Virus record (IMG/VR): IMGVR_UViG_3300032245_000376
Span: 1-36,159 of that record
Strand: one strand, 5' to 3'
DNA from: a virus
DNA: 36,159 nucleotides
Under the pieces are notes generated by a model. It saw only the letters and a program-made list of their open reading frames with translations. It did no database searches and was not told the DNA's origin. Positions 11,958 through 25,200 of the stretch are shown piece after piece; positions within the stretch are counted from its first letter, which is position 1, and each line of letters starts with the position of its first letter. The translations under genes and the position numbers were made by a program.

Positions 11958-14900
11958 ATGGCACTAACATCAATCACTAAAGACTTTGTTATCAAAGCGG
12001 GTATAACCACAGAAGGTACCCTTTTTGCAACAACGTCAACCGGGCAGACCGGAACGCTACAGGTCCTTGGTGGTGCCGCAATTGCTAAAAACTTAGTAGT
12101 TGGAACAACAGCAACAATTTGGGGTAACTCAACGCTGGTAGGTACGCTGAACGTTACTGGTTATAGCCAGGTAAGTCTACTAACTGCAACTATTTTTACG
12201 GCAACTAGTGCTAACATTATTGGTAACGAAACAGTCGGCGGAAACCTAGCAGTTACCGGCCTGTTTACCGCCACAGGTGCAAGTGAATTAGGTAATACAT
12301 TAAAAGTTGCAGGCAACAGTCTATTCAACGGTGCAGTAAACACATTTAGTGGTGCGCTATTTGTTACAGGTACAAACATTTTCACAGTAGGCACAGGTGC
12401 AAGTGCATTGGGCGGTTCTTTAAACGTTGCCGGTATAACAAGTCTTACAACTAACACCACAGCAGCCAATGCTGGAACAGGTGCATTGGTTGTTACCGGT
12501 GGTACTTATATTGGTGATAACTTAATTGTTAAAAGCACAGCATGGAATACTGCAACCAACACAGCCAACGCAATCTATACAGCGGGTGGTATCTATGCCG
12601 ATCGGGGATTAACTGTTGCAGGACCAACGTTATTCAAAGATATTGTTACATTTAACGGTACTGCCACCTACGTATTAAGTACAAATACATACTATACGGA
12701 CAACTTAATTGAATTGCATACTCCTCCCTCAGGTGTATACGGTCAATGGACATTAGACGACGGTAAGGATATTGGTTTCCGTTTCCACTACTATACAAAC
12801 TCAACAGATACCAATGCCGCCCTAGTTCTAGACAACACAACAAAATATCTTGACTGGTACAGTTCGGGTGCTGAATCAACAACTGGCGACTTCAGCAGTG
12901 CTACATTTGGTACATTTAGAACTGGTAGTATTATACTGGCAGGTGGCACAGCCGCAACCAGTACCATAACAGGATCGTTACAGATTACTAACGGTGGTAT
13001 AGGTGTTGGTGGTGCAGTATGGGCCAATACATTAAATGCTACAAACTTAACAACAGCCAGTGGTATTGTTTACAGTATCAATAACAAATTACAAAACACT
13101 CCTGTTACCTGGAACGATACTACACAACGTCTAGTTGGTACTATTGACTTATCCAATACAGCAACCAACATTACCGGCGGTTTAGCCGGTAGTATGCCAT
13201 ATCAAACAGCCGCAGGTCAAACAACCATGTTGGCTATTGGTACAAACGGTTATATTCTAACAGTCACAGGCGGAAACCCATCATGGCAACCAGTAAGCGG
13301 ATTGACTGCTGGTCTTGCTACCACAGCAACTAACATTGCTGGTGGTTTAAAAGATCAAGTTCCTTATCAGACTGCACCAGGACAAACAGCATTCAATGCA
13401 GGAATGACATTTAACGGTACTATTTTTACTGCTACAAACATCACAGTTAGTGGAACAAGTAATAGTACAGGATACAATAATAACACTGGTGCGTTAATTG
13501 TACGTGGCGGCGCCGCAATTAATAACGACTTATGGGTTGGCGGTGATATTAACCTACAAGGATCATTATTCTTAAAAGGTGTTGGCCTTGATCAAATTAC
13601 AGGTAGCACAGGTACGTTCGACTTTGTAATAATTGAAGGTACTGGCACAGCATTAACAGTTAATAACGGAGTTTCCATTGGCGGTGTCACAACAATGACC
13701 AGTACAACTCCGTCATTGGGATCGGCTACTGCTGGACCATTACAGGTAGCCGGCGGTGTAGGCATTGCTAAAGACATCTATGTAGGTACAACTGCTACTG
13801 TTGCTGGCGCACTGCTTGCAACTGGTACAACTCCTAGTTTAGGTGTTGCTACAGCAGGTGTTATACAGGCCACAGGTGGCGTGGGCATTGCCAAAGACAT
13901 CTATGTTGGTACAACTGCCACAGTAGCAGGAACATTCTATGCAACAAGTACTGCACCAGCATTATCAGGTGGACCAATAGTAGCGGCAATTGAAGTTTCT
14001 GGCGGTGTTGATATTTCTAAAGATATCTATGTAGGCACAACTGCAACTATTGCAGGTGTTACATTCCACAACAATACAACTCCAAGTTTGGCTTCTGCCA
14101 CACAAGGTGCTGTTCAAACCACAGGTGGTGTTGGAATTGCCAAAGATATCTATGTTGGTACAACTGCCACAGTAGCAGGTGCGGCCAGTGTTGGTACAAG
14201 TTTAACAGTAACTGGATACAGTTCATTAAACGGTGGTGCCACGGCCAGTGCTCTAACAGTAACCAACGCATTACTAGTAAGTGGATACACAACATTAAAT
14301 GGCGGCGCTACGATCAGTGCCGCAACCGTAACTAACGCATTACTGGTAAGTGGATACACAACATTGAATGGTGGTGCTACAATCAGTGCGGCCACTGTAA
14401 CCAACGCATTACTGGTAAGTGGATACACAACATTGAATGGTGGTGCTACCCTAAGTGCCGCCACAGTTACAAACACATTATTAGCAGCCAGTACAACTCC
14501 AAGTTTAGGTGTTGCTGCCGCAGGTGCAGTACAGGTAACTGGTGGTGTAGGCGTTGCCAAAGACTTATATGTAGGTACAACTGCTACTATTGCTGGTGTA
14601 ACTTTCCATAACAACACAACCCCTACATTGGCTTCTGCAACAGCAGGCGCAGTACAGACTACAGGTGGTGTTGGTATTGCTAAAGACTTGTATGTGGGTA
14701 CAACTGCTACTCTAGCAGGTTCGTTAGCAGTAACCGGATTTAGTTCACTAAGCGGTGGGGCTACTCTAAGCGCGGCCACAGTAACTAACGCACTAGTTGT
14801 GACTGGTTATACTTCACTGAACGGTGGTGCTACAATCAGTGCCGCTACAGTTACAAACACGTTAAGTGTAACTGGTAGAACATCATTAACTGATGTCAGT

Positions 14901-15581
14901 GTCAGTCAAACACTTACTGCAACTAACCTTGTTATTACAGGTACTGCAACTTTACCAAGTGTGGTTACATTATCTGCACTAACAGTTACAAACTTAACAG
15001 TTACCAACAACGAAACAGTTGGTAATAATCTAAGTGTTGCTAACTTGTTTACTGCAACCGGTGCCTCTGTATTTGGCAGTACAATTGGTGTAACAGGTAT
15101 TGCAACGTTCAACAGCACACAAGACAGTAATGCAACTAACAACGGTTCTATTGTTACACTAGGTGGTGTAGGTATTACTAAGAACTTGGTAGTAGGTAGT
15201 GCAGTAACCATTGGTTCAGTAAGCACACAGACTGTTGTTCCTGCAATCTACAGCAACAACAGTTTATACTCAAGTTATACCAGTGGTTATATTACAACCA
15301 ACGCTCAAGCCACTTTAGATACATATAGTGCCAGTGCATATAGAACTGCCAAATATATTGTACAGATTGTTGACGGTACTAAGATTCACGTTGAAGAGAT
15401 TCTAGTGTTCCACGATGGTACAAACGTATATCTAACTGAATATGCAATTGCTACAAGTCAGGGCGAACTAGGTACATTTGATGCTGCCTTGGGTGGTGGT
15501 ACAGTTACAGTATCGTTTACTCCTAACTATACCCCAACAAGCATGACTATCAAGTTGAATAGAACAACAATTACATTGTAA
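11958..15581 (+). CDS. Long tail fibre-like protein with tandem repeats (1207 aa)
   Basis: This long repetitive Thr/Ala/Gly-rich protein is typical of phage fibre shafts. Residues about 193-320 hold a non-repetitive module with LDDGKDIGFRFHYY that recurs in the 1456 aa fibre downstream. Residues about 400-510 carry two 'PYQTAxGQT' modules. From residue 583 there are copies of a 41 aa repeat (TTPSLGxATAGxxQxxGGVGIAKDIYVGTTATVAG...). These are interrupted and followed by 23 aa units (SGYTTLNGGATISAATVTNA). The last 100 residues (from about 1105, with LDTYSASAYRTAKYIVQIVD) form a globular domain shared with the previous gene. The ribosome site AAAGGAAAT precedes the ATG. The gene ends at a strong terminator, and the next gene is a glycine-rich adhesin-like protein, as in fibre/adhesin pairs of T-even phages. 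Confidence 0.87.
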   Translation: MALTSITKDFVIKAGITTEGTLFATTSTGQTGTLQVLGGAAIAKNLVVGTTATIWGNSTLVGTLNVTGYSQVSLLTATIFTATSANIIGNETVGGNLAVTGLFTATGASELGNTLKVAGNSLFNGAVNTFSGALFVTGTNIFTVGTGASALGGSLNVAGITSLTTNTTAANAGTGALVVTGGTYIGDNLIVKSTAWNTATNTANAIYTAGGIYADRGLTVAGPTLFKDIVTFNGTATYVLSTNTYYTDNLIELHTPPSGVYGQWTLDDGKDIGFRFHYYTNSTDTNAALVLDNTTKYLDWYSSGAESTTGDFSSATFGTFRTGSIILAGGTAATSTITGSLQITNGGIGVGGAVWANTLNATNLTTASGIVYSINNKLQNTPVTWNDTTQRLVGTIDLSNTATNITGGLAGSMPYQTAAGQTTMLAIGTNGYILTVTGGNPSWQPVSGLTAGLATTATNIAGGLKDQVPYQTAPGQTAFNAGMTFNGTIFTATNITVSGTSNSTGYNNNTGALIVRGGAAINNDLWVGGDINLQGSLFLKGVGLDQITGSTGTFDFVIIEGTGTALTVNNGVSIGGVTTMTSTTPSLGSATAGPLQVAGGVGIAKDIYVGTTATVAGALLATGTTPSLGVATAGVIQATGGVGIAKDIYVGTTATVAGTFYATSTAPALSGGPIVAAIEVSGGVDISKDIYVGTTATIAGVTFHNNTTPSLASATQGAVQTTGGVGIAKDIYVGTTATVAGAASVGTSLTVTGYSSLNGGATASALTVTNALLVSGYTTLNGGATISAATVTNALLVSGYTTLNGGATISAATVTNALLVSGYTTLNGGATLSAATVTNTLLAASTTPSLGVAAAGAVQVTGGVGVAKDLYVGTTATIAGVTFHNNTTPTLASATAGAVQTTGGVGIAKDLYVGTTATLAGSLAVTGFSSLSGGATLSAATVTNALVVTGYTSLNGGATISAATVTNTLSVTGRTSLTDVSVSQTLTATNLVITGTATLPSVVTLSALTVTNLTVTNNETVGNNLSVANLFTATGASVFGSTIGVTGIATFNSTQDSNATNNGSIVTLGGVGITKNLVVGSAVTIGSVSTQTVVPAIYSNNSLYSSYTSGYITTNAQATLDTYSASAYRTAKYIVQIVDGTKIHVEEILVFHDGTNVYLTEYAIATSQGELGTFDAALGGGTVTVSFTPNYTPTSMTIKLNRTTITL
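12535..12940 (+). repeat. Fibre module shared with 21712-22117
   Basis: About 130 codons (with LFKDIVTFNGTATYVLSTN, ELHTPP, DDGKDIGFRFHYY and TTKYLDWYS) are nearly the same at protein level in the 1207 aa and 1456 aa fibres. DNA differences are mostly synonymous, so the two copies have been separate for some time while the protein has been kept. Confidence 0.85.
13704..14210 (+). repeat. Tandem 123-base (41 aa) repeats
   Basis: Four consecutive units of the type TTPSLGxATAGxxQxxGGVGIAKDIYVGTTATVAG start near 13704, 13827, 13950 and 14076. The third is one codon longer and more diverged (VSGGVDISKDIYVG). Two further copies occur at about 14490-14720. They encode shaft repeats of the 1207 aa fibre. 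Confidence 0.85.
14211..14486 (+). repeat. Tandem 69-base (23 aa) repeats, four copies
   Basis: Four head-to-tail units start at 14211, 14280, 14349 and 14418 (SGYTTLNGGATISAATVTNA, then LLV or LLA). The two middle units are identical at protein level and the DNA is very similar. Degenerate copies continue at 14733, 14802, 14871 and about 14937. Confidence 0.9.
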
Positions 15582-15597
15582 AACGTGTAACTTTTAA

Positions 15598-15624
15598 GAA
15601 TAGGATCTTCGGATCCTATTTTTA
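15598..15624 (+). terminator. Rho-independent terminator after the 1207 aa fibre, UUCG tetraloop
   Basis: The stem TAGGATC (15601-15607) pairs with GATCCTA (15612-15618) around TTCG, with upstream A and downstream T tracts. It ends the transcription unit running from the giant fibre gene. Confidence 0.93.
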
Positions 15625-15642
15625 TTTCTTTTTATGGAAAAA

Positions 15643-15649
15643 TAAATAC
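15643..15649 (+). promoter_or_regulatory. Putative late promoter element TAAATAC, 3 bases before a start codon
   Basis: AATAAATACAGT directly precedes the ATG at 15653 and lies 19 bases after a terminator. No ribosome site fits between the motif and the ATG. A transcript from this element would be leaderless or have a very short leader. Confidence 0.55.
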
Positions 15650-15652
15650 AGT

Positions 15653-16849
15653 ATGACCATAATGCAATCATTTTTAGGAAGTGCTCCATCAGTATCATCT
15701 GCACCTACAATTGGTACTGCAACTGCTACTGCTTATAATCAAGCAACTGTTACATTCACTGCACCTTCTTCTAATGGTGGTTCTGCGATAACTTCATATA
15801 CAGCCGTGTCAAGTCCGGGGGGCATTACTGGTACACTGTCTGGTTCAGGTTCAGGCACAATTACTGTTAATGGCTTATCTGAATCAACAAGTTACACATT
15901 TACTGTATATGCGACCAATGCAGTAGGTAATTCAGCCAGTAGTTCGTCATCTAATTCTATAACAACTCCTGCTAATATAGTACCTGGTAATAGCGGAGTA
16001 TATACAGCGTCAACTACATTTACGGTTCCTACTTCATCCGGCGGCACAATTAAAATATTATGTATTGGAGCAGGTGGTGGCGGAGGCGGTGGCACTGGTC
16101 GTTCTGCTATATATCCATATACAGGTGGGGGTGGCGGTGGGTCAGGAGAACTTACACTAAAAACATATACTGTCACTCCAGGCACATCTTTAACAATTAC
16201 TATTAATTCAGTTGGCACAGCCGGTTCTGGGCGAGATGGACAGTATGGTGGGGGTAGTGCAGGCGGTGCAGGCGGTTCAGTAACTGTTAAAAATGGTGCT
16301 ACTATTATAGCGGGTGCGGCAGGTGGTAGCGGTGGTGCATTATCACAACTTTGCCCAAGTACGTTTGATAATAATAACTATAGCGCACACTTTAATCAGA
16401 ATCGAATCGATAATGCCGGAGATGTTGTTAGCGGAGGCAGTGGCGGTACAGGCGGCGCAGGCGCATCAGGATACACTAATCCATTGGCTAGTGCAGGTGG
16501 CAGTGGCGCAGGTTATACTTCAGCCTACGCAGGTGGCGGCGCAGGCGGACGAGGTTTTGCTATTAATACAACAGTTGGTACCGCAACTCCATATAGCGCA
16601 GGTTCTGCAGGAGCAGGTGGCAGAGGAAACGCACCACCGCAGGTATCATATGATATTGGATATTATTGGTTTACTTCTGCTACTAGTTGTAAAGGTGGTG
16701 GTGGCGCAAACACTATTGCCACAACAGGTAGCACCTATGGTGGAGGTGGGGGTGGTGGAGGTATAGATAACGAATATTGCGGTACTACAGGTAAAGCAGT
16801 TGGTGTTGCTGGTGGCACAGGTGCAGTATTCATCTGGTGGGGGTATTGA
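15653..16849 (+). CDS. FN3 plus glycine-rich adhesin-like protein (398 aa)
   Basis: The N-terminal peptide MTIMQSFLGSAP is nearly repeated at the start of the glycine-rich protein at 23582. Residues about 15-107 form a fibronectin type III domain (PTIGTATATAYNQATVTFTA, ITSYTAVSSPGG, VNGLSESTSYTFTVYATNAV). From about residue 138 to the end the protein is dominated by poly-glycine stretches separated by short aromatic and polar loops. It closes with GAVFIWWGY, an ending common in glycine-rich phage receptor-binding proteins. The glycine-rich design and the location directly after a long fibre gene recall gp38 adhesins of T2/S16-type phages, where polyglycine-II helices present variable loops. 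That functional link is inferred. Overlapping ORFs in other frames are composition artefacts. Confidence 0.82.
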   Translation: MTIMQSFLGSAPSVSSAPTIGTATATAYNQATVTFTAPSSNGGSAITSYTAVSSPGGITGTLSGSGSGTITVNGLSESTSYTFTVYATNAVGNSASSSSSNSITTPANIVPGNSGVYTASTTFTVPTSSGGTIKILCIGAGGGGGGGTGRSAIYPYTGGGGGGSGELTLKTYTVTPGTSLTITINSVGTAGSGRDGQYGGGSAGGAGGSVTVKNGATIIAGAAGGSGGALSQLCPSTFDNNNYSAHFNQNRIDNAGDVVSGGSGGTGGAGASGYTNPLASAGGSGAGYTSAYAGGGAGGRGFAINTTVGTATPYSAGSAGAGGRGNAPPQVSYDIGYYWFTSATSCKGGGGANTIATTGSTYGGGGGGGGIDNEYCGTTGKAVGVAGGTGAVFIWWGY

Positions 16850-16850
16850 C

Positions 16851-17279
16851 ATGAATGCACCGGTTATTACAATAGGATGTGTATCTAATCTTTACAGCAG
16901 ACAAATGCACTTTATAAACAAAGGAGATGTTGAACTAGGACACACTCATTTGTATGATCATTTCACATTACTGGCTGCTGGTAGCCTTCGAGTTACTATC
17001 GACGGCGCTGACACAGTGTTCACTGCACCAAACATGATTTTTATTAGAAAAGACAAAAATCATAGATTAGAAGCACTAGAGGACAATACAGTGGCATACT
17101 GTATTCATCCATTAAGAAATAATGATAAATCTGGCGATATAATGGACCCGAGTATGATTCCAATGATTCCTCCCAACGGCGGCACATATCAGCCAGGGTC
17201 CGAGGCGTTGGTAACACCTGCTTTTGAAATTGAAGATTACTGTCCTATCCCAACTGAAATTATTGGTAAAACTGTGTAA
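16851..17279 (+). CDS. Cupin-fold protein (142 aa)
   Basis: The ATG at 16851 starts one base after the preceding stop, with a GGTGGGGG ribosome-like stretch upstream. An earlier in-frame ATG at 16800 would overlap the adhesin gene and add non-conserved residues. Cupin motif 1 is visible as GHTHLYDHFTLLAAGSLRV (H31, H33, possibly H37, and G44). Motif 2 is around NMIFIRKDKNHRLEAL (H71). These would give a three-histidine metal site in a small beta-barrel. The C-terminal 50 residues are Pro-rich (SMIPMIPPNGGTYQPG). The substrate is not predictable. It is translationally linked to an adhesin gene and sits inside the fibre cluster, so a role in virion structure or in modifying sugars or fibres is possible. 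Neither is shown. Confidence 0.78.
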   Translation: MNAPVITIGCVSNLYSRQMHFINKGDVELGHTHLYDHFTLLAAGSLRVTIDGADTVFTAPNMIFIRKDKNHRLEALEDNTVAYCIHPLRNNDKSGDIMDPSMIPMIPPNGGTYQPGSEALVTPAFEIEDYCPIPTEIIGKTV

Positions 17280-17305
17280 AAGATCTCCAGTCCCTATTCT
17301 TATTT

Positions 17306-17313
17306 TATAAATG
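17306..17313 (+). promoter_or_regulatory. Possible late promoter TATAAATG
   Basis: TATAAATG differs from the T4 late consensus TATAAATA at one base. It lies in the 94-base gap between the cupin stop and the next start at 17374, leaving a leader of about 55 bases. A second candidate, CTAAATAAC at 17331, lies further down in the loop of a hairpin. Confidence 0.4.
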
Positions 17314-17325
17314 CTATTTTACCGT

Positions 17326-17348
17326 TTGGGCTAAATAACACTAGCCAA
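17326..17348 (+). promoter_or_regulatory. Hairpin in the leader of the tail-collar fibre gene
   Basis: TTGG(G)CTA at 17326-17333 can pair with TAGCCAA at 17342-17348 around an eight-base loop AATAACAC, with one bulged G. It has no T tract, so it is not a classic terminator. It could be an mRNA-stability or translation element, or chance. Confidence 0.35.
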
Positions 17349-17373
17349 TTGGTGGAAAGGGAAACTAAGGGCA

Positions 17374-18621
17374 ATGTCAACAACTAACGCCGACTTTAAA
17401 GTCAAAAAAGGCCTGGTGGTTAATACCACTGCGTCGTTCTTATCAACTGTGACTTCAACTAGCACTACTACAGGTGGTGTTATTCTTTCGGGCGGTATAG
17501 GCATTGCCAAAGATGTTTACATTGGCGGAAATATTGTTGGCTACGGTACAATCGTGGCCGGCGGCGTTCGCTCAACAAGTTCGAGTACAGCCCCTGTAAA
17601 CCCCACAGTTGGAGATATTTGGTACGACACAGTATCCGATGATATTAGTCGCTATACCAGCGACGGTACTAGCAGTTACTGGTTAGATATTACAGGCCCA
17701 ACTGTGGCCAACGTAAATTTTGGTACTAATAATACCTTTGCAGGACTAACCACAACAGGCGACATATTACCTGGTTCCAATGGTTTATACAATATTGGAA
17801 GTCCTACACTACGTTTTAGAACATTGTATGTAACCAGTGCTACAATTGACCTAGGCGGAACTACTCTTTCTGTTAATTCAACAACTAATTCTCTGCATAT
17901 TAATTCAGATCAAGTTGTTACAACTGCTTCTATTGTTAATCTTTCAATTGCCGCGCAAACAGTTGCTGGTGGAGTTGGAGTATATACGTTGTCAGCAGGA
18001 ACTGGTACTGCTGTTAGTGCAAGTAGCGGTACTGTTACTGTATGGAATACAACTCCCGGATTTAGTACAAGTACATTAGTAGCATCAGCAGTTAGTGCTC
18101 AAGTAGGAACAACCACAGCATATAGTAACTCTAGCACATCGTTAGCAACTACAGCATTTGTACAAAGTGTAATACCTAGAGGTGTTATTTTAATGTGGGG
18201 TGGTGCAACAACTACAATACCTACAGGATGGCAACTTTGTGATGGTACAAACTCTACTCCAGATTTACGCAGTAAATTTATTGTGGGAGCAAGTGCCAGC
18301 GGTGGATATGCAGTAGCAACCACAGGCGGTAGTGCAGACGCTGTTGTGGTTAGCCATAATCATACGGCTTCATCTAGTGTTACTGACCCAGGCCACTTCC
18401 ATACAAGTAACTGGTATAACATCAACGACTATAACCAAGGTAGTCTTTCTCCCGGAGCAGAACAATATCCCGACGATCAACAAGGTAACTTTAACAAAGA
18501 CACTGATACAAAAACCACTGGGATTACTGTTTCTACAACCGTTAGTAGTTCGGGTGTTAGTGCAACTAATGCTAACTTGCCTCCGTACTATGCATTATGC
18601 TACATTCAAAAAATGTTCTAA
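17374..18621 (+). CDS. Tail fibre protein with phage tail collar domain (415 aa)
   Basis: The N-terminal half carries a fibre repeat (residues about 28-55, STTTGGVILSGGIGIAKDVY). Next comes a module RSTSSSTAP...GDIWYD...SYWLDITGPTVA (about 65-115) that recurs in the 1456 aa fibre at about 22678-22830. A tail collar domain (Pfam Collar type) begins near residue 268 with PRGVILMWGG...IPTGWQLCDG and PDLRSKFIVGAS. It is followed by HxH motifs (VVSHNHTAS and GHFHT) like the metal-binding HxH sites of T4 gp12 and gp37 tips. The end, LPPYYALCYIQKMF, is the usual collar-family terminus. This could be the short tail fibre (gp12 counterpart) or a distal long-fibre tip; I cannot decide which. TAAGG lies before the ATG. 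Confidence 0.87.
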   Translation: MSTTNADFKVKKGLVVNTTASFLSTVTSTSTTTGGVILSGGIGIAKDVYIGGNIVGYGTIVAGGVRSTSSSTAPVNPTVGDIWYDTVSDDISRYTSDGTSSYWLDITGPTVANVNFGTNNTFAGLTTTGDILPGSNGLYNIGSPTLRFRTLYVTSATIDLGGTTLSVNSTTNSLHINSDQVVTTASIVNLSIAAQTVAGGVGVYTLSAGTGTAVSASSGTVTVWNTTPGFSTSTLVASAVSAQVGTTTAYSNSSTSLATTAFVQSVIPRGVILMWGGATTTIPTGWQLCDGTNSTPDLRSKFIVGASASGGYAVATTGGSADAVVVSHNHTASSSVTDPGHFHTSNWYNINDYNQGSLSPGAEQYPDDQQGNFNKDTDTKTTGITVSTTVSSSGVSATNANLPPYYALCYIQKMF

Positions 18622-18633
18622 GGATATGAATAA

Positions 18634-19194
18634 ATGAGTTTTCCACTATCACCTACTACCGGACAACTAGCAGTATTCAATGGAATAACCTATTCCTATA
18701 GTACCAGCACACAAAAATGGACTCGCGTAACACAGTCAGTGACTGCCACGACCAGTCTATTCATTTCCGGTAATACACAATCAACAGGTACCACAACCGG
18801 TGCATTAGTTGTTACAGGTGGTGTAGGCATAGGCGGCAATTTATATGCCGGTGCAATCTATTCAAATGGTGTACTTGTAGGCGGAAACGCTGGCAGTGCT
18901 ACCACTTCAACAAACTTAAATGGCGGTCAAGCAGGTTATATACCTTATCAACTGGCCCCAAGCGTTACTACATTGACCAACAAGTTGGTATTTGATGGTT
19001 CCTATGTACAAATAAATAGTAGTACAGTATTAACCACCGCTAGTGTCTATGGACAAGTAGGAATTACTGTGTCTAGCACCAGCACTGGCAATGTTTACCT
19101 AGCATTTATACCTGGAATACAAGGAGTTAGTGCAGATTTTGGATTAATCAGTGACCCAGTAGGACCGATCTATTATGATTGGGGCACATTCTAA
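18634..19194 (+). CDS. Small fibre protein (186 aa), paralogue of the gene at 24424
   Basis: The N-terminal 36 residues (MSFPLSPTTGQLAVFNGITY, then YSTSTQKWTRVTQSVT) are a small domain that is repeated almost residue for residue at the start of the 258 aa protein at 24424. One fibre repeat (TTTGALVVTGGVGIGGNLY, about residues 52-72) and one 'GQAGYIPYQLAPSVT' module (about 97-115) follow. The start is set by AAGGA at the end of the preceding gene, about ten bases upstream. It probably attaches to, or co-assembles with, the neighbouring long fibres. That role is inferred. Confidence 0.78.
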   Translation: MSFPLSPTTGQLAVFNGITYSYSTSTQKWTRVTQSVTATTSLFISGNTQSTGTTTGALVVTGGVGIGGNLYAGAIYSNGVLVGGNAGSATTSTNLNGGQAGYIPYQLAPSVTTLTNKLVFDGSYVQINSSTVLTTASVYGQVGITVSSTSTGNVYLAFIPGIQGVSADFGLISDPVGPIYYDWGTF

Positions 19195-19209
19195 TAAAGA
19201 GAAAATAAG

Positions 19210-22200
19210 ATGGCAACACAAGTACAATGGAAAAGAGGAACCACAGCACAGAATAACACCTACACAGGTGCTATTGGTGAAATTACGGTTGATACTACAC
19301 TAAAACAATTACGTCTCCATGACGGGGCAACTGCCGGCGGAACAACAATTGGTAGTAGTGCTGTTACTGTAACTACTGCAACTAACCTAGCGGGCGGAAC
19401 GGCAGGGCAAATTCCTTATCAAACAGCCGCAGGTGCAACCAGTTTCTTCGGAGCAGGCACAGCAGGTACTGTACTAGTAAGTTATGGCTCATCCGGTACT
19501 CCCACATTCCAAAATACATTAACCCTAGCAGGTACAACAGCGGCTACATCTACTCAAACTGGTGCATTGGTAGTAGGCGGAGGTGTTGGCATTGGTGGTA
19601 ACTTATATGTTGGTGGCGATATTATTGCTAATAAGTTAACTATTCAACTGACCACAGTTACAACAACATTAATACAAACTGATGACATTATCAGTACCTA
19701 TAATACTACTCAATCAAATTCAACAACTACAGGTGCTCTACAAATTGCTGGCGGCGCTGGTATTGGTTTAGATATTACAGTTGGTGGAAGTATTAGAGTT
19801 GGTAGTGTTGTTACAGCCACAACTTTTGCTGGTAACTTATCTGGAAATCTTGTAAGTGCAGGAACAGGTAACATTGTATATCAAAGTGCCAACAATACCA
19901 CAAGTTACTTGACCACAGGTACTGCCGGACAATTGCTAGTTGCCGCAGGTGGCGCACCTGTTTGGACAAGCACTGGCAGTATCTATGTTAACCGCGCAAC
20001 ATTGGCTGACTTGGCCACAACAGCAACTAATGCGGCAACTGCCTATGCAACTATTGCTACTTTATCAACTGGCACTGGTTTTTACGGTGGATCATTTAAC
20101 GGATCAGTAAACCAAACATGGTCATTGAATACTAGTACATTAATGGCCAATGCTGTTACGTCGATTAATATTGTTGGAGGTGCCGCAGGTAGTGTTCCAT
20201 ATCAAACAGCCGCAGGTACAACCACAATGTTACCATTGGGTACTAGTGGTTATGTTCTAACTGCTGGTGCAAGTGCTCCGTCATGGTCAGCAATCAGTGG
20301 ATTAAGCGCAGGTAATGCTACCACTGCAACTAACTTAGCCAACGGTCAACCAGGTTATATACCTTATCAAACAGCACCAGGTTTAACTAGTTTTATTACC
20401 AGTGCTACTACAGGCTATTTCTTGCAAGGTAACTATGCAGGTGCTCCTACCTGGACTGGTACAGCCAGTATGTATGTCAATGATGCAGTTAAATCTACTA
20501 ACCTACGTGCAGGTACTGCTGGACAATTACATTATCAAAGTGCGGCAGACACCAGCGGATTTATTAACACAGCCACAACAGGTAACTTCTTACAGGCCAA
20601 CTACGTAGGTGCACCTACTTGGACAACTACAGCCAGCATGTATGTTCAGGATGCAGTAGTGAGTACAAACGTCCGTGCAGGTACTGCTGGACAATTACAT
20701 TATCAAAGTGGTGCAAGCACAACTGGTTTTGTTGGTCCTGGCTCATTTGGTCAGTTCTTAATGTCAACTGGTGCAAGTGCTCCGGTGTACCAATCAACCT
20801 TAACACAGGCCGGTGGTAATATTATCATCACTAGTAATACTGCGGCTACTTCAACTGCCACAGGTGCCCTACAAATTGTCAATGGCGGTTTAGGTGTTGG
20901 TGGTGATATTTGGGCAGGCAATATATTCACTGGGCCTAATCAGTACATTTATTTTGGTGGATCAACAGGCACTAGAATTTATCGTGACGGTGGCAATAAT
21001 GGTATGTCGTTACAGACTAGTGGCATATCCAGATTGTTCATTGCAGATAACACAGGTATTGTTACAGTAACAACTGGATCTTCTGTAAGTTCAACAAATA
21101 CCGGTGCTCTGCAAGTTTTTGGCGGCATTGGCGTTAATGGCGGCGGTTTTTTTGGCGGTATTGTTACTGCCACAACTTATTATGGTACATTTGCAGGTAC
21201 AATTGGCGGCGTAACAACAATTAATACAGCCAATAATATTGCCGCAGGTACTGCCGGACAAATACACTATCAAAGTGCTCCAGGTATAACTGCGTTTGTT
21301 TCAACTGCTACCACTGGCTACTTCTTACAGGCCAACTACGTAGGTGCTCCTACATGGACTTCAAGTGGTACAATACAAGTAGGCTATGCGGCCAACATAT
21401 TAGGCGCAGGTACAGGTAATTTAGTCTATCAAAGCGGTAGCAATACAACTGCACTACTAAGCACTGGTACTACAGGTCAGTTACTAATGGCCGCAGGTGG
21501 CGCACCTGTATTTACAAATACTTCAAGCATCTATGTTGCAGCCGCAACACAGGTCAACACACAATTACAATCTGCCAGTGCAAACTATTTCCCTGCATTT
21601 GTCAGTGCTAACAATGCCGCAAGTTCGGCAATGTCTGTTTATACAACCAGCAGTTTTTACATTAACCCAGCAAGTGGTAACGTAACAGTTGGCGGCGCAT
21701 TAACTGTCAGCAGTACTGCCTATAACACAGCAACCAACACAGCCAACGCAATTTACACACCGGGTGCTGTCTATGCTGATAAAGGTCTAACAGTAGCAGG
21801 TCCTGTATTATTCAAAGATATTGTTACATTTAACGGTACTGCTACCTATGTTCTAAGTACAAATTCGTATTACACCGATAACCTACTTGAATTACATACC
21901 CCTCCAGGTGGTGTGTATGCTCCGTGGTTTGTCGATGATGGCAAAGATATCGGATTCCGTTTCCATTATTATACAGCAAGCACTGATACTAATGCGGCAT
22001 TGGTACTAGATAACACAACAAAATATCTTGATTGGTATAGCGCAGGTGCTGAAGCCACAAACGGAGACTTCAGCAGTGCTACCTTTGGTATATTTAGAAC
22101 TGGTAATATTAAATTAGTTACTGGTACTGCAAACGCAGGTAACACAAGTTCTGGTGACTTAACTGTATTGGGCGGTGTAGGTATTGGTGGTAGTATATAT

Positions 22201-23580
22201 GTCGGAGGCAACATCACTGTTGCCGGCGCAATTAACGCTACAGTCAACGGTACAATTACATCTGCTACAAACGTAGCAGGCGGTACAGCAGGACAAATTC
22301 ATTATCAAACAGCACCGGGTCTAACTGGCTTTGCTGGTCCTGGTACTGCCGGTAACGTATTGGTCAGTAACGGTACGGGTGCTCCTACCTACAACAACAC
22401 ATTAACATTAACTGGTACTACACAGGCAACATCAACAACAACAGGCGCCCTACAGGTAGCAGGCGGCGTTGGTATTGGTGGTAACATTTACTTCAACGGT
22501 AATCTATATCAAAACGGTGTATTGTTTACCAGTGGTAGTACCAGTACAACCAGTACATTCACAATCAACAACACAACTACCAGTGTGTCAACTACAACTG
22601 GTGCTCTAGTAGTACAGGGCGGCGTTGGTATTGGCGGTAGTGTCAACATTGGTGGTACTGTAACAGGCGGTGGTATCCGTTCAACAAGTACAAGTACCGC
22701 CCCAGCAAATGCTACTGTAGGTGATATTTGGTACAACACATCAACAGATGATATCTATCGTTATACCAACGATGGCACAACTACAACCAGTTACTGGTTA
22801 GACATCACAGGTCCAACAGTGGCTAACCTAAGTTCTATAACTGCAAGTAATATTGCAGGTGGAACTGCTGGACAATTAAATTATCAATCAGCACCAAGTA
22901 CAACTGCTTTTGTTAACACAGCCACAACAGGTAATTTCTTACAGGCAAACTATGTAGGTGCTCCTACTTGGACAACTACAGCCAGTATGTATGTAGGAGC
23001 CGCAACCAGTGCTGTTAACTTGTTTGGCGGAAGTGCTGGACAATTTGCTTATCAAACGGCAGCAGGTGCTACTGCATTTGTATCAACTGGTAGTATGTAT
23101 GTTAATCGTGCAACATTGGCTGACTCAGCAACTGCCGTTGCCGCAAGTGGAATTTCGGGAACTATTGGTAACTCACAACTTACGGGTAGTGGTGCAGTAA
23201 CGGTTACTGCTGGCACTGGTGTAAGTGGTGGTGGCAGTGTTGCATTAGGTAGCACAATAACCATAAACGCAGTAGGCACAACAATTAACTCAACAAGCAG
23301 TGCCTATGTATTAGTGGCCGGCGACGCAGGAAAAACAATCAGTATAACCACAGGTGGTGTTACTATTCCTAATGCTGTAATGAGTGCAGGGCATATTGTT
23401 TCTATCTACAACAACTCAGGTTCAAGTCAAACTATTACTCAAGGTTCAAGTCTTACCTTACAATGGGCAGGCCAATCGACATCACAGACAGGTAACAGAA
23501 CATTAGGACTGTATGGTATGTGTACAATTCTATTCATAACAGCATCAAGTGCTGTAATTACAGGATCTGGACTAACATAA
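19210..23580 (+). CDS. Long tail fibre with Mtd_N-like N-terminus (1456 aa)
   Basis: Residues about 5-48 (VQWKRGTTAQNNTYTGAIGE, TVDTTLKQLRLHDGATAGG) match the small N-terminal domain first described in the Bordetella phage tropism determinant Mtd, common in phage fibres. The shaft contains about eleven 'GTAGQ(I/L)xYQxAxGxTxF' modules, many followed by (A/S)TTGxFLQANYVGAPTW. These alternate with TTTGALxxxGGVGIGGxxYVGG repeats. Residues about 835-970 carry the DDGKDIGFRFHYY module shared with the 1207 aa fibre. The C-terminal 100 residues form a non-repetitive beta domain (AGDAGKTISITTGGVTIPNA, LYGMCTILFITASSAVI). This is a host-recognition fibre assembled from modules found in several neighbours. 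I see no variable-repeat/template pair or reverse transcriptase, so Mtd-style diversity generation is not implied. Confidence 0.88.
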   Translation: MATQVQWKRGTTAQNNTYTGAIGEITVDTTLKQLRLHDGATAGGTTIGSSAVTVTTATNLAGGTAGQIPYQTAAGATSFFGAGTAGTVLVSYGSSGTPTFQNTLTLAGTTAATSTQTGALVVGGGVGIGGNLYVGGDIIANKLTIQLTTVTTTLIQTDDIISTYNTTQSNSTTTGALQIAGGAGIGLDITVGGSIRVGSVVTATTFAGNLSGNLVSAGTGNIVYQSANNTTSYLTTGTAGQLLVAAGGAPVWTSTGSIYVNRATLADLATTATNAATAYATIATLSTGTGFYGGSFNGSVNQTWSLNTSTLMANAVTSINIVGGAAGSVPYQTAAGTTTMLPLGTSGYVLTAGASAPSWSAISGLSAGNATTATNLANGQPGYIPYQTAPGLTSFITSATTGYFLQGNYAGAPTWTGTASMYVNDAVKSTNLRAGTAGQLHYQSAADTSGFINTATTGNFLQANYVGAPTWTTTASMYVQDAVVSTNVRAGTAGQLHYQSGASTTGFVGPGSFGQFLMSTGASAPVYQSTLTQAGGNIIITSNTAATSTATGALQIVNGGLGVGGDIWAGNIFTGPNQYIYFGGSTGTRIYRDGGNNGMSLQTSGISRLFIADNTGIVTVTTGSSVSSTNTGALQVFGGIGVNGGGFFGGIVTATTYYGTFAGTIGGVTTINTANNIAAGTAGQIHYQSAPGITAFVSTATTGYFLQANYVGAPTWTSSGTIQVGYAANILGAGTGNLVYQSGSNTTALLSTGTTGQLLMAAGGAPVFTNTSSIYVAAATQVNTQLQSASANYFPAFVSANNAASSAMSVYTTSSFYINPASGNVTVGGALTVSSTAYNTATNTANAIYTPGAVYADKGLTVAGPVLFKDIVTFNGTATYVLSTNSYYTDNLLELHTPPGGVYAPWFVDDGKDIGFRFHYYTASTDTNAALVLDNTTKYLDWYSAGAEATNGDFSSATFGIFRTGNIKLVTGTANAGNTSSGDLTVLGGVGIGGSIYVGGNITVAGAINATVNGTITSATNVAGGTAGQIHYQTAPGLTGFAGPGTAGNVLVSNGTGAPTYNNTLTLTGTTQATSTTTGALQVAGGVGIGGNIYFNGNLYQNGVLFTSGSTSTTSTFTINNTTTSVSTTTGALVVQGGVGIGGSVNIGGTVTGGGIRSTSTSTAPANATVGDIWYNTSTDDIYRYTNDGTTTTSYWLDITGPTVANLSSITASNIAGGTAGQLNYQSAPSTTAFVNTATTGNFLQANYVGAPTWTTTASMYVGAATSAVNLFGGSAGQFAYQTAAGATAFVSTGSMYVNRATLADSATAVAASGISGTIGNSQLTGSGAVTVTAGTGVSGGGSVALGSTITINAVGTTINSTSSAYVLVAGDAGKTISITTGGVTIPNAVMSAGHIVSIYNNSGSSQTITQGSSLTLQWAGQSTSQTGNRTLGLYGMCTILFITASSAVITGSGLT
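21712..22117 (+). repeat. Fibre module shared with 12535-12940
   Basis: Second copy of the module with LFKDIVTFNGTATYVLSTN, ELHTPP, DDGKDIGFRFHYY and TTKYLDWYS. The protein is strongly conserved against the copy in the 1207 aa fibre, while many codons differ at the third base. Confidence 0.85.
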
Positions 23581-23581
23581 A

Positions 23582-24403
23582 ATGACTATTCTGCAATCAT
23601 TTTTAGGAGCCGGTCCAGGAAGAATAGCACTTAGTGTAGTTTATTCATCCACTACACAATCGCCGACTGTTACACTGGACACATTATCAGGGTATTCTGC
23701 TGGTAAAACAGATATAACAATTACAGTAAATTCTGGTGTTGTGCTTTATGGTAATCCTGGCAGTTTTGCAACTGCTCTTAAAATTACAGGTTCAGCGGCC
23801 GCTGGAGATACAGTCACTTTGATCAATAATGGTCGTATACTTGGTTATGGCGGAGATGGCGCACTTGGTGGACAAGTTGGTCCATCGGGTTCAGCAAGCC
23901 CAGGGCCAATAGGACCATATCAAGGAAGCAATGGTGGCGATGCATTGACCATTATAAAAACAAGCATAACACCAACAATCAATATTATCAATAACGGCAC
24001 CATAGCCGGAGGTGGTGGAGGTGGAGGAGGTGGAGGTGGCTACTATCCAAGTCCCTACGGTCACGGTGGTGGTGGCGGTGGTGGACAAGGTTATCCGGGT
24101 GGTGTGGCTGATACTCAAGGTGGGTCATATAATCCAGCCGGTTCAATACCTTCAGGTACAGCAGGTACATCGGGCTCAGATTCGGGGGCAGGCACTTACG
24201 GTAACGGTGTTAACGGTGCCGGTCGTGGCGGCGCCGGTGGGGCATATGGCGTCGCAGGCTCGGCTGGAACAGACAGTAGCCAATCCAACCCAATCTACAA
24301 AGGCTACGGTTCCAGTGGCGGTGCTGCCGGTGCTTATGTTAGAGGTTCTGCAAAGGTTTCGTTTACAGTGAGTGGAACGCTACAAGGTAACAATATAAGT
24401 TAA
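23582..24403 (+). CDS. Glycine-rich adhesin-like protein (273 aa)
   Basis: The start MTILQSFLGAGP closely matches that of the glycine-rich protein at 15653, suggesting a shared docking peptide. Residues about 17-135 form a beta-rich domain (QSPTVTLDTLSGYSAGKTDI, VTLINNGRILGYGGDGALGG). From about residue 142 the protein has long poly-glycine runs (eleven Gly, then seven Gly) broken by short Tyr/Pro/Ser loops. It ends in a beta strand (KVSFTVSGTLQGNNIS). The ATG follows the stop of the long fibre gene by one base, so the two are probably co-translated, as expected for a fibre and its tip adhesin. The polyglycine design resembles gp38-type adhesins. Direct homology cannot be claimed from sequence reading. 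Confidence 0.8.
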   Translation: MTILQSFLGAGPGRIALSVVYSSTTQSPTVTLDTLSGYSAGKTDITITVNSGVVLYGNPGSFATALKITGSAAAGDTVTLINNGRILGYGGDGALGGQVGPSGSASPGPIGPYQGSNGGDALTIIKTSITPTINIINNGTIAGGGGGGGGGGGYYPSPYGHGGGGGGGQGYPGGVADTQGGSYNPAGSIPSGTAGTSGSDSGAGTYGNGVNGAGRGGAGGAYGVAGSAGTDSSQSNPIYKGYGSSGGAAGAYVRGSAKVSFTVSGTLQGNNIS

Positions 24404-24423: not shown

Positions 24424-25200
24424 ATGAGTTTTCCAACTTCCCCAACAAACGGACAAACCGCAACGCTAAACGGTATAACCTATACCTATAGCAGTGCCAA
24501 TACCTCATGGACTAGAGTTTCACAATCAGTAACTTCTACAATAAGTTTAACAGTCTTGTCTACATCACAATCAACCAGCACCACAACTGGTGCTTTGCAA
24601 GTTGTGGGTGGCGTAGGAATCGGCGGAAACATTTATTTCAATGGTAACCTATACCAAAACGGTGTATTGTTTACCAGTGGCAGTACCAGTACAACCAGTA
24701 CTTTTAACATTACCAATATTACCCAATCAACCAGCACCACAACAGGTGCCCTAGTGGTTGCAGGTGGTGTGGGCGTAGGTGGAAACATTTATTCTGCAGG
24801 TATTCATGTAATACAAAACTCAACTAATGCCAGTTCAACTACTACAGGTGCCCTAATTGTTCAGGGCGGTGTTGGTATTGCTGGTAATGCCTACGTAGGT
24901 GGTAATTTATATACCAACGGTTCAATAATTTTACCAACTAGCATTCAAGAATTTACAGCAACAGGTGGGCAAACATTGTTTACCGTTGCAGGTGGATATA
25001 CAGTTGGTACCATACAGATATTTGCCAACGGTGTACAGTTAGCAAGTTCAGATTACACAGCCAGCAACGGAACAACAGTATCATTAAACACACCTCGTGT
25101 TAGTGGTGATATTATTAGAACGGTATCAGGATTAACCAGCAGTAGCATTAACAACATAAATGCACTCGCAATAGCATATTCTGTAGCATTTGGTGGATAA
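24424..25200 (+). CDS. Small fibre protein (258 aa), paralogue of the gene at 18634
   Basis: The N-terminal domain (MSFPTSPTNGQTATLNGITY, then TYSSANTSWTRVSQSVT) matches that of the 186 aa protein at 18634. Three fibre repeats of the TSTTTGALxVxGGVGIGGN type follow (about residues 55-75, 103-122 and 140-160). The first leads into a NGNLYQNGVLFTSGSTSTTS module also present in the 1456 aa fibre near 22490. The C-terminal 80 residues (IQEFTATGGQTLFTVAGGYT, VGTIQIFANGVQLASSDYTA) look like a separate beta domain familiar from phage fibre and baseplate proteins. A ribosome site AAGGA lies before the ATG. TTAAATAAAG at 24400-24409 could be a weak late promoter. Confidence 0.78.
   Translation: MSFPTSPTNGQTATLNGITYTYSSANTSWTRVSQSVTSTISLTVLSTSQSTSTTTGALQVVGGVGIGGNIYFNGNLYQNGVLFTSGSTSTTSTFNITNITQSTSTTTGALVVAGGVGVGGNIYSAGIHVIQNSTNASSTTTGALIVQGGVGIAGNAYVGGNLYTNGSIILPTSIQEFTATGGQTLFTVAGGYTVGTIQIFANGVQLASSDYTASNGTTVSLNTPRVSGDIIRTVSGLTSSSINNINALAIAYSVAFGG

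Follow-up and report, generated by a model that had tools for sequence, protein, structure and literature searches.

The two glycine-rich proteins described here, tip A and tip B, begin with a common N-terminal peptide that behaves as an attachment module, as the sequence-only reading had proposed: in many phages this peptide is tied to one C-terminal fibre domain (FCD), while the adhesin payloads that follow it are exchangeable. We consider it rather probable that the peptide of both proteins fits, as a plug, the FCD of a 1456-aa fibre, and that the two tips are adhesins conferring alternative or mixed specificities. The assignment of the peptide as plug and the FCD as socket is made by analogy with T4 gp9 and with gp38 of S16 and T2. 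The window, which is the whole 36,159-nt linear IMG/VR record, carries, besides a long run of repeat-rich fibre genes, genes for a major head protein and a tail sheath stabiliser-like protein, and is therefore a piece of a T4-like myovirus genome; judging from its relatives, the phage most probably originates from water. Both tip genes lie within the fibre array (Table 1).

Table 1. Coordinates of features in the 36,159-nt window, with the evidence on which each annotation rests
Feature	Coordinates	Strand	Evidence or remarks
1207-aa fibre	11958..15581	+	C-terminal ~112 aa (15243-15578) T4 gp9/10-C-like, not FCD
Terminator-like hairpin with T-rich tail, gap between 1207-aa fibre and tip A	15595..15624	+	13-pair stem
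ATAAATA, T4-type late promoter-like, just 5' of tip A	15642..15648	+	Motif scan; weak evidence
Putative docking peptide (plug) of tip A, MTIMQSFLGSAP	15653..15688	+	19.4 bits, peptide PSSM
Tip A: plug, FN3 (residues 16-100) and Gly_rich_2-like payload (residues 120-395)	15653..16849	+	Pfam
Small cupin-like protein	16851..17279	+	PF07883, 8.3e-5
1456-aa fibre, Mtd_N-like head and FCD tail	19210..23580	+	PF18454, 2e-10 (residues 5-41); FCD, 5e-43
FCD (putative socket), 96-aa C-terminal fibre domain	23290..23577	+	AF2, Foldseek, 79 IMG/VR loci
Putative docking peptide (plug) of tip B, MTILQSFLGAGP	23582..23617	+	14.9 bits, window left out of training
Tip B: plug and Gp38-like polyglycine adhesin body (residues 39-271)	23582..24403	+	Pfam, PHROG, Foldseek
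258-aa fibre-array protein	24424..25200	+	3' of tip B; C-terminal half similar to end of the single L018 fibre gene

Both tip genes are intact open reading frames, encoding proteins of 398 aa (tip A) and 273 aa (tip B) with glycine contents of 24% and 27%, and each is preceded by a real long open reading frame (1207 and 1456 aa, respectively). Their N-termini, MTIMQSFLGSAP in tip A and MTILQSFLGAGP in tip B, are identical at 9 of 12 residues (24 of 27 nucleotides), and the two proteins are otherwise unrelated, with FN3 and Gly_rich_2-like domains in the former versus GP38 in the latter. In these points the initial description of the two genes was confirmed. Gene spacing differs, with tip B starting 1 nt and tip A 71 nt past the stop codon of the respective fibre gene. 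Among the 14 gene starts in the window, one further pair reaches 9 of 12 residues (18634/24424, MSFPxSPTxGQ), and all other pairs share four or fewer. The degenerate peptide MTIxQSFLG, with up to three mismatches allowed, occurs at two sites in the window only, those of tips A and B, compared with a mean of 0.05 in shuffled sequences, none of which contained two. Searches of phage records with the full tip A and tip B proteins (tblastn) yielded no match, for which low-complexity filtering is partly responsible.

The FCD was found in 79 IMG/VR loci (L numbers denote the loci and contigs compared here), as well as in the Synechococcus phages S-B28 (Autographiviridae) and S-CBS2, a single-cell virus of the Kyanoviridae, the Sphaerotilus phage vB_SnaP-R1 (Autographiviridae) and, by the FCD profile, the Limnohabitans phage YIMV22061. 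Nearly all FCD stop codons have a gene within a few bases, and most of these genes start like M[ST]IxQx[LF][LF]G; across 82 distinct pairs of FCD and next gene, the gap ranges from -4 to +11 nt. When 69 non-redundant leaders were scored with a leave-one-out PSSM, 84% reached at least 2 bits and 55% at least 8 bits, versus 1.5% and 0.2% of 1057 other ORF starts that served as control. The two control starts above 8 bits were tip A itself and a polymerase gene (L003) that had been fetched by the peptide pattern. Tip B conforms to this arrangement, its peptide-led gene lying inside the range of -4 to +11 nt from an FCD, and tip A has the peptide with no FCD adjacent to it.

The linkage also holds when approached from the peptide. 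A peptide-only scan, using MTIMQ followed by a degenerate S/T/R-type codon and two F/L codons, retrieved 25 places, comprising 14 with a gene of more than 100 aa (about 10 distinct) and 11 chance ORFs. All 14 genes begin +1 or -1 nt from the stop codon of an FCD fibre, compared with none of the chance ORFs; four of the 14 are located on contigs already found with the FCD. The concern that the peptide might be present on many unrelated proteins was not borne out, as none of these 14 genes was unrelated and a scan of IMG/VR with MTIxQSFLG returned two chance matches only, one antisense and one in L003, where a DNA polymerase begins; the latter was the single unrelated protein. Furthermore, plug codons vary synonymously while the residues hold (21 leaders), which indicates that selection acts on the protein. 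Some FCDs, such as those of L066, L146 and L326, are followed by a gene that lacks the peptide. Genome contigs contain only two FCD loci, of which L325 fits the rule (11.7 bits, gap -1) and L326 does not. Similarity between peptides correlates weakly with similarity between FCDs (Spearman 0.23, Mantel test) and no better than with similarity between payloads (0.27); co-variation of peptide and FCD was not separable from shared ancestry and is not counted as support.

In L066, L143:5221, L146:8283 and L158:9282, the gene at -1 nt after the FCD departs from the rule: it lacks the peptide and encodes a conserved 102-aa protein (MEFTWSFPQFIV...). From 3279 onward in L325, a contig that was binned as Candidatus Neomarinimicrobiota and is probably phage DNA, an FCD is followed at -1 nt by MSTQQILLGGGK... 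and a fibrinogen-like-looking sequence (GGGWTMFAR).

The proteins encoded after the FCD vary. In a set of 64 payloads, which includes both window tips and L161, Gly_rich_2 was identified in 38, fn3 in eight, LamG in five and GP38 in five, in addition to RCC1 and others. L174 combines the peptide, FN3 and a Gp38-type body in a single protein immediately after the FCD. Gp38-type bodies, in a separate set of loci that also numbers 79, carry two main leaders, namely the short peptide with an FCD upstream, and a leader of 50-60 aa ('SSGAISL...NVELG...GKSNR') after other genes. Ten short leaders and one long leader occur after an FCD, and four short and 50 long leaders after other genes (Fisher P 6e-8). 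The sole long-leader exception after an FCD, L174, is the protein that bears the peptide plus FN3, and at least two of the four short-leader exceptions without an FCD (L161 and L301) have ends that score as FCD-like and were missed by the strict rule; the L277 end is of the same kind as that of L301. Gp38 of the Tevenvirinae bears a third leader type, Gp38_N.

Tip B has a Gp38 fold. It matches PF05268 (E 2.4e-7, 31.3 bits vs a cut-off of 25) and PHROG 2056 (2.2e-12), and the top three Foldseek matches of its model are gp38 of PP01 and S16 (E 2e-4 to 7e-3); in the AlphaFold2 model (pLDDT 73) the core is confident and the polyglycine part uncertain. Its gene occupies the gp38 position, directly 3' of a distal fibre gene at a gap of 1 nt. 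Gp38_N (PF21721, with the tryptophan helices) is absent from tip B, and the positive control phiR1-RT gp38 was recovered at 3.9e-21. By sequence, the Gp38-like family has no significant match among PDB chains. The likeness to gp37-gp38 noted in the sequence-only reading thus applies in part: the tip B body is gp38-like by both family and fold, and Gp38_N and the gp37 end are missing.

Tip A matches PF00041 (1.8e-8) and, below the curated cut-off (20.4 vs 24.3 bits), Gly_rich_2 (PF21722, 5.8e-4). The Gp38 body (PF05268) is absent from tip A and is replaced by FN3 and the Gly_rich_2-like region; tip A works like a tip yet is no member of the Gp38 family. The same order of peptide, FN3 and glycine-rich sequence is encoded immediately after the FCD in L078 and L088. 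Residues 112-398 of tip A are 57% identical to the product of L163:2668, which bears the long leader, and a homologue 78% identical to the cupin-like protein adjoins this payload homologue in L163. Since the payload relative in L163 has another leader, leaders have been exchanged, and the peptide plus FN3 of tip A represents the replacement of one attachment leader by another. On this sequence comparison tip A is a chimera. Judging by gene neighbourhood, the cupin-like protein travels with adhesin genes and may modify, fold or accompany adhesins. Cupin-like homologues are also encoded near gp38-like adhesin genes in L255, L278, L288, L301 and L277. Neither tip is present in the relative L018, with which the neighbouring 1066-aa protein shares 67% identity; the L018 orthologue of the 1207-aa fibre runs directly into the next fibre with no tip gene between, and the 1227-aa fibre of L018 starts like the 1456-aa fibre and lacks an FCD. 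Both tips look like cassette insertions. The region 5' of tip A was considered as a decayed fibre end and rejected, having no similarity past the leader start.

The two long fibres end differently. The FCD of the 1456-aa fibre was modelled with high confidence (AF2, pLDDT 96.5), and its solved structural neighbours by Foldseek are phage spikes (Pa223 spike) and T4 gp9, the match to gp9 (1QEX) being modest (E 0.036, prob 0.98, TM 0.49). The model does not match the S16-type gp37 end (6F45) by Foldseek, and by sequence the FCD has no significant match among PDB chains. No other Pfam fibre end is present in the 1456-aa fibre, in which the Mtd_N head is the sole match up to E 0.1. With filters off, the FCD occurs only once in the window; the 1207-aa fibre gave no match to it, even with all filters off (--max), and its end matches PF23618 below the cut-off (E 0.0013).

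Tips A and B would serve a tailed phage as receptor-binding proteins at the distal tip of a fibre. In each, a short hydrophobic plug made up of the first ~10-12 residues (consensus M-[ST]-I-x-Q-x-[LF]-[LF]-G) would bind a trimeric fibre at its C-terminal FCD, and the remainder constitutes an exchangeable adhesin payload. Tip B, encoded 1 nt past the 1456-aa fibre, would dock on the FCD of that fibre. Tip A, whose gene lies 7.9 kb upstream and forms a separate unit with that of its cupin-like companion, would compete for or alternate at the same fibre end, with mixed or alternative receptor specificities as the putative outcome. Both tips are probably borne by the 1456-aa fibre, because the window contains one FCD and two plugs. 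Such sharing has no direct precedent, as among the strong peptide genes only that of tip A was seen at a distance from any FCD. More tentatively, the pair may represent a plug-and-socket standard common to T4-like cyanophages, Autographiviridae and siphovirus-like phages, in which a socket of ~96 aa takes any payload with a ~10-residue plug, and of which this phage might possess two payloads for one socket.

The proposed docking is compared here with known systems. In S16, one gp38 caps the gp37 trimer via tryptophans on helices of the attachment domain (PMC6851490); T2-type phages require a gp38 whose N-terminus matches its own gp37 (PMC12892980). As in gp37-gp38 of the T-even phages T2, S16 and PP01 (6F45, 9V85; PF05268), an adhesin gene follows that of the distal fibre, the body of tip B belongs to the Gp38 family, and an N-terminal region would provide attachment while a variable body would set specificity. 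In contrast to these phages, the putative attachment region is a ~12-aa peptide rather than the three tryptophan-bearing helices of Gp38_N (PF21721; PMC6851490), the fibre ends in an FCD that does not match 6F45, and two tips with one leader are found in one phage. The C-terminal domain of T4 gp9 receives the long tail fibres coaxially (PMC3004832). The FCD model gives a modest structural match to this long-tail-fibre socket, whereas the FCD forms the distal terminus of a long fibre with an adhesin gene next to it, and has no significant sequence match to gp9. S-B28, S-CBS2, vB_SnaP-R1 and YIMV22061 have the same FCD followed by an overlapping gene, the product of which is Gp38-like with a short leader in vB_SnaP-R1 and YIMV22061; unlike the window, they contain a single such tip in the stretches examined. 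The records label these downstream genes hypothetical or PE_PGRS and state no docking role. In Pam3, the chaperone gp25, co-encoded with the tail fibre gp24, likewise embraces a distal glycine-rich end (PMC9608196), but in that phage the glycine-rich domain belongs to the fibre itself, and its partner is a chaperone composed of a beta-sandwich and a helix.

The sequence-only reading had assigned each tip to the fibre encoded before it (1207 aa for tip A, 1456 aa for tip B), giving two gp37-gp38-like pairs. A long fibre gene does precede each tip gene and, as the 1207-aa end is gp9/10-C-like (PF23618) and the FCD modestly gp9-like by fold, both ends might be remote variants of one socket. Yet the two end domains failed to align in a profile comparison, and relatives of the 1207-aa end, which lacks an FCD, never precede peptide genes: none was found after them in L018, L042, L053 and L176, in the cyanophages S-SM2, S-SRM01, S-SCSM2R and S-CAM7, or after a 394-aa protein with the same end in the window, and no tip gene follows the orthologous L018 fibre. 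Furthermore, L161 and L286 each encode two Gp38-type proteins on different fibre types, and these have different leaders. This part of the reading is therefore not supported and we regard the two-pair arrangement as unlikely, although a possible remote gp9-like kinship of both ends leaves it some weight; given the absence of an FCD from the 1207-aa fibre and of peptide genes after the relatives of its end, both tips more likely share the 1456-aa fibre.

As the record represents only 36 kb of the genome, a second FCD fibre, to which tip A could belong, may be encoded outside it. Contigs with two FCD proteins do exist (L137, L143, L146 and L158), but the peptide gene abuts its own FCD in every other case seen, and we consider this origin of tip A quite unlikely. 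The leader could also be a chaperone or assembly signal rather than an anchor, with the tips as released assembly factors, since the genes of T4 gp38 and of assembly proteins related to it adjoin the fibre gene on its 3' side, and their products are not incorporated (PMC9608196). The payloads, however, are recognisable binding domains (Gp38 polyglycine body, LamG, FN3), and T2-type gp38 with such a body stays at the fibre tip (PMC6851490), which makes this explanation very improbable. Hardly any credence is due to conservation of the peptide as DNA only, through translational coupling or as a recombination site: the high nucleotide identity of the two copies (24/27) and the frequent stop/start overlaps would fit it, but not the synonymous codon variation with conserved residues across 21 leaders, nor the tip A peptide, which has no fibre stop codon next to it.

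Detachable adhesins of the Gp38 type determine the host range of many T-even phages, and aquatic phages seem to possess a gp38-type design in which the attachment module is far smaller and the fibre ends differently. No description of a plug-FCD pairing was found among the open-access papers listed for tail-fibre tips, gp38 and glycine-rich domains. Genes after the FCD in named records are hypothetical or misnamed, and receptor-binding proteins in metagenomes could be found via the gene after the FCD or via the leader peptide. If two tips share one socket, two specificities would be possible without phase variation or a second fibre, and one genotype could build virions with different or mixed tips. 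As the plug-socket pair is small, a direct test is feasible with two purified proteins.

Several further observations concern the fibre array and its surroundings. The motif ATAAATA is rarer in the window than in shuffles (five observed vs 12 expected), and four of the five copies are at or near gene starts (2804, 15642, 31678 and 36046(-)), as a T4-type late promoter would be; a sigma-70 promoter scan gave no more than background. In L163 (710-5747), a further phage in which several tips have one type of leader, three glycine-rich or gp38-like proteins with related SSG-type leaders are encoded in ~5 kb, with small genes and a cupin-like gene between them. Groups of two to three glycine-rich proteins in L047:198-3257 and L028:444-1961 have a short common start, M[STA]xLxxL, and a CCLWTVPAG motif, and are possibly a parallel tip family. 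Residues 129-234 of the 258-aa protein encoded 3' of tip B are 65% identical to the end of the single fibre gene of L018 (tblastn). This protein and the product of 18634-19194 form the second N-terminus-sharing pair of the window (MSFPxSPTxGQxAxxNGITYxYS), each gene being immediately 5' of a long fibre or structural gene, and such gene pairs are also present in L015 (6240, 9417).
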